The notes under the pieces are model-generated. The model saw only the letters and a list, made by a program, of their open reading frames with translations. It was not told where the DNA came from and searched no databases. Of a DNA stretch of 64,000 bases, positions 62,749 through 64,000 are shown piece after piece. The stretch is from positions 47,056-111,055 of the forward strand of contig JANYEB010000037.1 in the NCBI GenBank assembly GCA_025363355.1. Direction: 5' to 3'. Position 1 is the first letter of the stretch. The number at the start of each line of letters is the position of its first letter. Origin of the DNA: Chitinophagaceae bacterium. Lineage in GTDB: Bacteria > Bacteroidota > Bacteroidia > Chitinophagales > Chitinophagaceae. The position numbers and the translations under genes are program-made.

Positions 62749-64000
62749 TTAATTGTAATTTGATAATCGAAATTCAACACTATTTTCTTTAGTTCCTCTA
62801 ATGTTACCACGACAGTTTGATGCTTTGCAAGAACATTCAAACCCTTGTGCTGTATCATTAATTAGCAAAGCATAGTCTAGTGTTAATTCTTCGCCTTGCA
62901 AAATGTCTCGGTCTGCAATAACATTTAATCCAAAGTATTTTGTATTAGCGTTGCAGCTATGATTTTGTGGAGCCCATTCGCTGGCATCTTCATCCCAAAG
63001 AATAAAAACATTTTTACTGATAGGATAAGCATATCTAGCAAAATCTTCCTTCTGTTGCTTGTCCCAATTTGCATCAACATATTGTTTAGTTACGATGCGT
63101 TGGGCTTTTTCTTCTCCCTTAAAAATCACTTCACTTTGCAAAATATTTTTTGTTGCATAAATGCCGTAACCTGCAATAGCATTGCCTTTTACCTGATAAC
63201 ATTTTTGTTTACGTTGAAGTCTTGCTATACCTTCTTCAATAATATGTTTTAAAAAACCTGCTTGACTAATAGCATCATATTTTAAAATATAATCTGCACT
63301 TCCTTCGTATCCATCTTTATAAAAAACGCTACAAGTAAAATTAATTTCAAGAAAAAATAGTTTGCCATTTTCATTCATCCTAAAATCTAAACGTGCATAA
63401 CCAACACCATTAAATGCAGTAAAAATATTTTGTGAAGCATTGCATAGTTTATCTTTTAAAGCAATATCTGTAACAGCAATATTGGCATCTAAATGTAATT
63501 CACTTGTCTTCAAACTATAGGTTTTATAGCTTTTATCTTTAGGAAAAATATATTCAACTGGTGTAAATGCTTGACAAGTTTTGCCATCGGTATTTGCAGC
63601 AACAAGCACCGTAAATTCTCTTCCTGCAATATATTCTTCTATCAATAGTTCATCATACTCGTCAATAATTTTGGAAATCTGCTCTTGTAGTTCTTGTTCG
63701 CTATTCACCAAAGAATTTTCATCAATACCTAAGCTATCACCAGCTTTGGCAGGTTTTATAAAAAGTGGAAATACTAATTTAACATCATCAACCTCATCTA
63801 ATGAATTTATTTTTTGGTATGATGGTGTTGCAACTCCAGCACAATATGCAACATATTTCATTAGCTCTTTTGGAGGGTCGTAAAGTTTTAAATTTGGACC
63901 AGTGTAAGGTAGATTCAAAAGTTCTAAAGTGTAGATAACATCAATACTTGGAACTGTCCAATCTAAATAACCTTCACAAAGGTTCACAAAAATATCGTAG
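62749..64000 (-). CDS. ATP-grasp (D-Ala-D-Ala ligase-like) ligase fused to SET + post-SET domain; N-terminus beyond right window edge
   Basis: ATP-grasp: FPLFIKPAKAGDSLGID, LLIEEYIAGREFTVLV, ARLDFRMNENGKLFFLEINFTC; SET: GNAIAGYGIYATKNI, NHSCNANT (62947..62964 encodes NHSCNA), GEELTLDYA; post-SET CSCKASNCRG. Reading frame continues upstream as YDIFVNLCEGY to base 64000. Confidence 0.9.
   Translation of the reverse strand, partial: YDIFVNLCEGYLDWTVPSIDVIYTLELLNLPYTGPNLKLYDPPKELMKYVAYCAGVATPSYQKINSLDEVDDVKLVFPLFIKPAKAGDSLGIDENSLVNSEQELQEQISKIIDEYDELLIEEYIAGREFTVLVAANTDGKTCQAFTPVEYIFPKDKSYKTYSLKTSELHLDANIAVTDIALKDKLCNASQNIFTAFNGVGYARLDFRMNENGKLFFLEINFTCSVFYKDGYEGSADYILKYDAISQAGFLKHIIEEGIARLQRKQKCYQVKGNAIAGYGIYATKNILQSEVIFKGEEKAQRIVTKQYVDANWDKQQKEDFARYAYPISKNVFILWDEDASEWAPQNHSCNANTKYFGLNVIADRDILQGEELTLDYALLINDTAQGFECSCKASNCRGNIRGTKENSVEFRLSNYN

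Follow-up and report, generated by a model that had tools for sequence, protein, structure and literature searches.

The window analysed here is a stretch of 64,000 nucleotides from a Chitinophagaceae bacterium (GenBank assembly GCA_025363355.1, contig JANYEB010000037.1, positions 47,056 to 111,055). At its right edge, the minus strand carries a gene encoding an ATP-grasp ligase fused to a SET domain. This fusion is a real, conserved and apparently uncharacterised enzyme, predicted to be bifunctional. It is the last gene of a conserved operon that also encodes a stand-alone SET protein and a second ATP-grasp protein, hereafter AG2. On balance we favour a small-molecule pathway, in which the ATP-grasp and SET proteins would build and methylate a small amino-acid or amine conjugate, the product probably being exported or membrane-associated. 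We infer the enzymatic activities, the small-molecule substrate, the order of the steps and the export from sequence.

In the window, the open reading frame (ORF) of the fusion covers 62749 to 63999 and is still open at the edge. Following it to the right of base 64000, on the parent contig (178,678 bp, in a 3.6-Mb genome), gave the full N-terminus and the neighbouring genes. The complete ORF encodes 472 residues and has an ATG start past the window edge, at window-equivalent positions 62749 to 64167. Parent-contig positions are given in L005 numbering, to which 60944 is added to obtain window-equivalent positions. The gene and its domains are located as follows.

62749 to 64000 in the window, minus strand: ATP-grasp–SET fusion gene, with its start-codon end (64001-64167) outside the window; L005:1805-3223 in the parent-contig reading.
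63340 to 63783, minus strand: ATP-grasp (Dala_Dala_lig_C) domain, residues 129-276, from Pfam and the DdlB alignment.
62872 to 63171, minus strand: SET domain, residues 333-432, with GxG at 333-335, NHSC at 402-405 and GEELTLDY ending in Tyr432 at the catalytic position, from Pfam and alignment.
62812 to 62835, minus strand: post-SET zinc motif C445-x-C447-x4-C452, from alignment.

The D-Ala–D-Ala ligase (Ddl)-like ATP-grasp comes first and is followed by a complete SET and post-SET region. Both Pfam matches are above the gathering cut-off (Dala_Dala_lig_C, E 8e-21; SET, E 8e-10). An AlphaFold model obtained with a 36-sequence alignment as input has a mean pLDDT (predicted local distance difference test score) of 86.9 and a pTM (predicted template modelling score) of 0.84. 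An earlier, sequence-only reading of the window had proposed that a single polypeptide joins a ligase to a SET domain. The two Pfam domains and a fused frame that recurs unbroken across loci bear this out. The motifs it had pointed to are all present, with GKLFFLEIN at 268-276, NHSCN at 402-406, GEELTLDY at 425-432 and the post-SET cysteines listed above. It had also considered that a frameshift or an assembly error might have joined two genes. The same frame is unbroken in 42 other loci, at 53-79% identity and nearly all from Bacteroidota, as well as in other genomes; the fusion is therefore not an assembly artefact. The scan of genome contigs that gave these loci extends only to close relatives, and the frame of one locus, L068, begins at a contig edge. 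The nearest named relatives are Chitinophagaceae metagenome assemblies.

The ligase half keeps the ATP/Mg site of Ddl enzymes. In an alignment with DdlB of E. coli (EcDdlB; reference sequence taken from NC_000913), residues K97, K144, E180, E187 and K215 correspond to K100, K138, E177, E184 and K220 of the fusion, and R255, D257, E270 and N272 to R259, D261, E274 and N276. The Ddl-type ATP/Mg residues of the window fusion, from K138 to N276, are thus all kept, and the catalytic positions are retained in 20-21 of 21 fused sequences, the K97 equivalent being K or R. In contrast, the positions of EcDdlB that we take, from the Ddl literature, to recognise D-Ala (E15, E68, S150, Y216, S281 and L282) are mostly replaced. 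At the positions of E15, S150, Y216, S281 and L282, the fused sequences carry S/T/C, D/A/S, T/W or unrelated residues. The ligase half of the AlphaFold model matches Ddl structures (E 1e-18), and the top matches listed are all of Ddl or Van type. The fusion thus has in common with Ddl and Van ligases (PF07478) the fold and the ATP/Mg2+ site, but differs from them by its altered D-Ala-recognition residues, its separate clade and its C-terminal SET domain. In a tree of 59 ATP-grasp domains, no clustering of the fused domain with housekeeping Ddl was seen, the split from eight Ddl being supported at 100/100. The separate clade and the lost specificity residues rule out a housekeeping Ddl carrying a stray domain.

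The SET half is equally well preserved. Residues G333, G335, N402, H403, C405, Y432, C445, C447 and C452 are invariant in the 36-sequence alignment. The loss of SAM (S-adenosylmethionine)-binding or tyrosine residues, which the sequence-only reading had considered, is therefore not seen, and both active sites appear intact from the alignments, as that reading had suggested.

The position of the fusion at the end of an operon could not be seen in the window and goes beyond what had been read there. The window genome has SET, AG2, a 76-residue ORF, a ParE-type toxin ORF and the fusion, in that order. The neighbours all lie beyond the window edge, on the parent contig.

L005:3223-3504, minus strand: ParE-type toxin ORF, 93 residues.
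L005:3489-3719, minus strand: ORF of 76 residues.
L005:3751-4827, minus strand: AG2, second ATP-grasp, 358 residues.
L005:4827-5309, minus strand: stand-alone BurB-like SET, 160 residues.
L005:5357-5971, minus strand: PnuC-family gene, 204 residues, putative operon member.

Across 43 loci, the window locus included, the conserved order is stand-alone SET, AG2 and then the fusion. AG2 precedes the fusion in 39 of the 43, all 39 pairs sharing one strand, with a median gap of 10 bp, and the stand-alone SET lies upstream of AG2 in 24 of these 39 (median gap 5.5 bp). An ABC-transporter transmembrane protein devoid of an ATPase domain (PF13748) is encoded downstream of the fusion in 13 loci. The ParE-type and 76-residue ORFs together occupy L005:3223-3719 on the minus strand (window-equivalent 64167-64663), and the first shares one base with the start codon of the fusion. 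Because they were seen in no operon other than that of the window genome, they are probably an insertion and not part of the system.

A survey of the fusion and its gene neighbourhoods, which had been suggested along with the sequence-only reading, showed that the fusion is widespread in Bacteroidota. Of 61 genomes searched, 12 (window genome included, 59-100% identity) carry the fused frame without a break. Among 396 Bacteroidota genomes, the fusion was found in 17, some of which belong to a more distant clade matching at about 440 bits. At lower similarity it occurs in green sulfur bacteria and in two further families. The main genus of the distant clade was identified as green sulfur bacteria because the FMO bacteriochlorophyll protein is present in all three members tested. 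In one genome the FMO (BChl_A) gene lies in two overlapping frames, as if frameshifted by a gene break or a sequencing error (G173:C9:61185-62236). Green sulfur bacteria lack AG2 and have, in this order, a SET, the fusion, a complete ABC exporter and then another short SET, their third. A full Bacteroidota-type operon, at 56% identity, was also found in a record labelled Williamsia sp. (L069), which is probably a misbinned metagenome contig. No phage or plasmid record covering 80% of the fusion was found, and a phage- or plasmid-borne element was rejected.

In the ATP-grasp tree, a single group (99/93) unites the fused domains of the two clades and is sister to AG2 (100/99). Together they stand apart from housekeeping Ddl and from the ATP-grasps linked to KamA and GNAT genes or to C39-peptidase-like genes. 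The program warned of long branches meeting, so that the deeper joins are less certain than the named groups. Distances between fused ATP-grasp domains correlate with those of AG2 (Mantel r 0.90), of the fused SET (r 0.85) and of the stand-alone SET (r 0.61), as expected for co-inherited genes. The stand-alone SET tracks the fusion across genomes even when the two are unlinked. A sample of 297 genomes contains 15 with a strong stand-alone SET, of which 14 have the fusion too, these counts not being independent of kinship. The SET of G025, like the SET and AG2 of G268, is far from the fusion or on another contig.

The closest solved relative of the stand-alone SET is BurB (phmmer E 2e-15; profile E 4e-18, versus 8e-9 for the next). 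Its predicted fold (pLDDT 95) is also closest to that of BurB. BurB (PDB 9l4t/9l4v) is a SET-domain S-methyltransferase acting on free methionine in dimethylsulfoniopropionate (DMSP) and malleicyprol biosynthesis (PMC12542666). It binds methionine mostly through the main chain, and its Tyr124Phe and Ser88Ala mutants remain active, the authors proposing a mechanism of proximity and desolvation (PMC12542666). The equivalents of Thr73, His93 and Tyr124 are retained in the stand-alone SET of the window genome. Unlike the fusion, BurB is not joined to a ligase. No BurI-, BurD- or BurE-like gene (decarboxylase, aminotransferase, aldehyde dehydrogenase) was found as a conserved neighbour among the clustered ORFs, and a BurB-type DMSP pathway was rejected on this ground. 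The sequence-only reading had given the SET domain a eukaryotic flavour. The analysis does not support this: a bacterial metabolic SET is the nearest match of the stand-alone protein, and in profile comparisons the fused domain fits the C-terminal half of BurB and KMT2-type domains about equally.

In the pathway that we favour, the fused ATP-grasp would use ATP to activate a carboxylate as an acyl phosphate and couple this to an amine or amino acid; its substrate would not be D-Ala. AG2 would make another amide bond of this kind. The fused and stand-alone SET domains would move SAM methyl groups onto a nitrogen or sulfur atom of these same molecules, whether a free amino acid, a dipeptide or an amine conjugate. 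The ABC component, whose gene adjoins theirs in green sulfur bacteria and in many Chitinophagaceae, suggests that the product may be exported or flipped across the membrane. The coupling of ligation and methylation on a small molecule, already proposed from the window, gains support from the operon (AG2, SET and, in some lineages, the ABC component) and from the kinship with BurB. For the N-methylation suggested at that stage, nitrogen is only one option for the acceptor because BurB methylates sulfur. Purely by analogy of gene context, amine-rich amino acids are plausible substrates, because a related ATP-grasp of Thioflavicoccus adjoins diaminobutyrate, diaminopropionate and KamA genes.

Several observations weigh against this pathway. 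No assayed enzyme with the ATP-grasp–SET architecture was found in the literature searched. Histone-lysine enzymes and BurB are about equally good matches to the fused SET. In the stand-alone SET, the SAM-contacting residues His72, Arg133 and His138 of BurB are changed to L56, Q118 and N123, so methionine need not be its substrate. No AG2 was found in G267, in G393 or in the green sulfur bacteria searched, and many Cytophagales loci have no stand-alone SET beside the fusion; neither is thus strictly required next to the fusion. Finally, the ABC component of Chitinophagaceae, with its missing ATPase domain, is limited to the 13 loci mentioned above.

Most characterised SET domains are protein-lysine methyltransferases. 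In a protein-modification reading, the ATP-grasp could attach amino acids to a lysine or to the tail of a protein, as TTL/TTLL enzymes and RimK do, and the SET domain could methylate the added residue or a nearby lysine. The KMT2-type match spans the full fused SET (profile E about 1e-11), and the fusion shares with KMT2/MLL-type histone-lysine methyltransferases the SET motifs and the post-SET zinc site. It differs from them in being bacterial, joined to a Ddl-type ligase and placed in a metabolic-looking operon. The fused ATP-grasp belongs to the Ddl superfamily, RimK- and TTL-type enzymes not being its best matches, and to our knowledge characterised members of this superfamily ligate free small molecules. 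Moreover, the partner SET is nearest to BurB, an enzyme of a free amino acid, and clustering of neighbours across loci revealed no conserved gene for a substrate protein in the operon. In favour of protein modification, eukaryotic TTLL12 also joins SET-like and TTL (ATP-grasp) domains in one chain (PMC3520985). In TTLL12, the SET-like domain is N-terminal, the TTL domain is C-terminal and both sites are devoid of critical residues (PMC3520985), whereas the fusion has a Ddl-class ATP-grasp followed by SET, with both sites kept. Overall, we regard protein modification as unlikely.

The two ATP-grasps might instead make an altered peptidoglycan dipeptide or cross-bridge that the SET domains would methylate. 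Ddl and Van ligases are indeed the best-scoring families. However, the window genome carries elsewhere (G000:C199) a Ddl-like gene whose product clusters with other housekeeping Ddl, the D-Ala-specificity residues are lost in the fusion, and Mur and Van genes are not apparent next to the operon in this genome. Such a cell-wall variant is therefore quite improbable. A fusion with one catalytic half and one binding or scaffolding half, as proposed for TTLL12, is very improbable, as the catalytic residues of both halves are kept in essentially all sequences.

Within the small-molecule pathway, one tentative possibility is that Bacteroidota and green sulfur bacteria make an undescribed class of natural product or compatible solute, independently of ribosomes and nonribosomal peptide synthetases. 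This would be a small amide-linked amino-acid or polyamine conjugate. Ddl-type ATP-grasps would assemble it and several SET domains would methylate it, with one of these domains fused to the ligase so that joining and methylation are coupled. If so, it would be a leading case of SET domains acting as small-molecule tailoring enzymes. SET domains are taught as histone or protein-lysine methyltransferases; the operon suggests that bacterial ones need not be protein modifiers of the histone type. The ligase-fused and ligase-linked SET domains offer comparative evidence that one SET branch works, like BurB, in small-molecule metabolism. They also call for caution with the default label of protein-lysine N-methyltransferase that bacterial SET proteins carry in some database records. 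The two- or three-gene set defined here can be expressed and its product searched for by mass spectrometry.

The individual parts are of known kinds; their combination is apparently undescribed in the literature searched. There, TTLL12 was the only protein found to associate SET with an ATP-grasp, and a review of bacterial SET proteins makes no mention of ligases; the architecture may have been listed before. According to another review, diatoms possess proteins that unite SAM decarboxylase, aminopropyltransferase and a histone-methyltransferase-type domain, the last presumably N-methylating polyamines (Michael 2011, cited in PMC12029483). As described there, they resemble the window fusion in joining such a domain to a small-molecule enzyme whose amine product would be methylated, and differ in having polyamine enzymes in place of the ATP-grasp. 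A SET version of this polyamine fusion was found at L140:6468-8318, minus strand (G259:C65), with SET, SAM decarboxylase and spermidine synthase in 617 residues. The adjoining gene (L140:4992-6440, minus strand, 483 residues) has an N-terminal SET and a C-terminal domain that looks ATP-grasp-like by eye; its hhalign match to ATP-grasp is weak (probability 30%, E 6e-4) and it has no Pfam match.

Beyond the operon, other compact bacterial SET proteins met in the analysis sit in metabolic contexts. In Eleftheria terrae, one lies inside a bur-like polyketide cluster. On Rhizobium bangladeshense plasmid p7 (NZ_CP071625.1, L166), an asparagine-synthase-like gene, a BurB-like SET annotated as hypothetical protein and a SAM decarboxylase stand in a row. 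Two further bacterial SET matches have no telling gene context. Two genomes (G075 and G061) each have, within the same genomic surroundings, two stand-alone SET genes in tandem that encode about 200-220 residues apiece (L146:5323-6539 and L147:5720-6963).

Related ATP-grasps have settings of their own. The Thioflavicoccus mobilis gene lies on plasmid NC_019941.1 (L129), with a diaminobutyrate aminotransferase, SbnA, an ornithine-cyclodeaminase-like gene and KamA. Two tandem Ddl-like ATP-grasps were found at L114:5519-9349, L117, L120, L121, L122 and L128, in most cases with a GNAT acetyltransferase and KamA (lysine 2,3-aminomutase-like); this set is an apparent further small-molecule pathway based on ATP-grasps. 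In several genomes of the phylum, a Ddl-like ATP-grasp adjoins a C39-peptidase-like gene (L115, L116, L118 and L123). In G267 (L110:2041-7792), a fusion homologue is upstream of genes for an N-formylglutamate amidohydrolase, a MATCAP-family protein and a GshB-like ATP-grasp.
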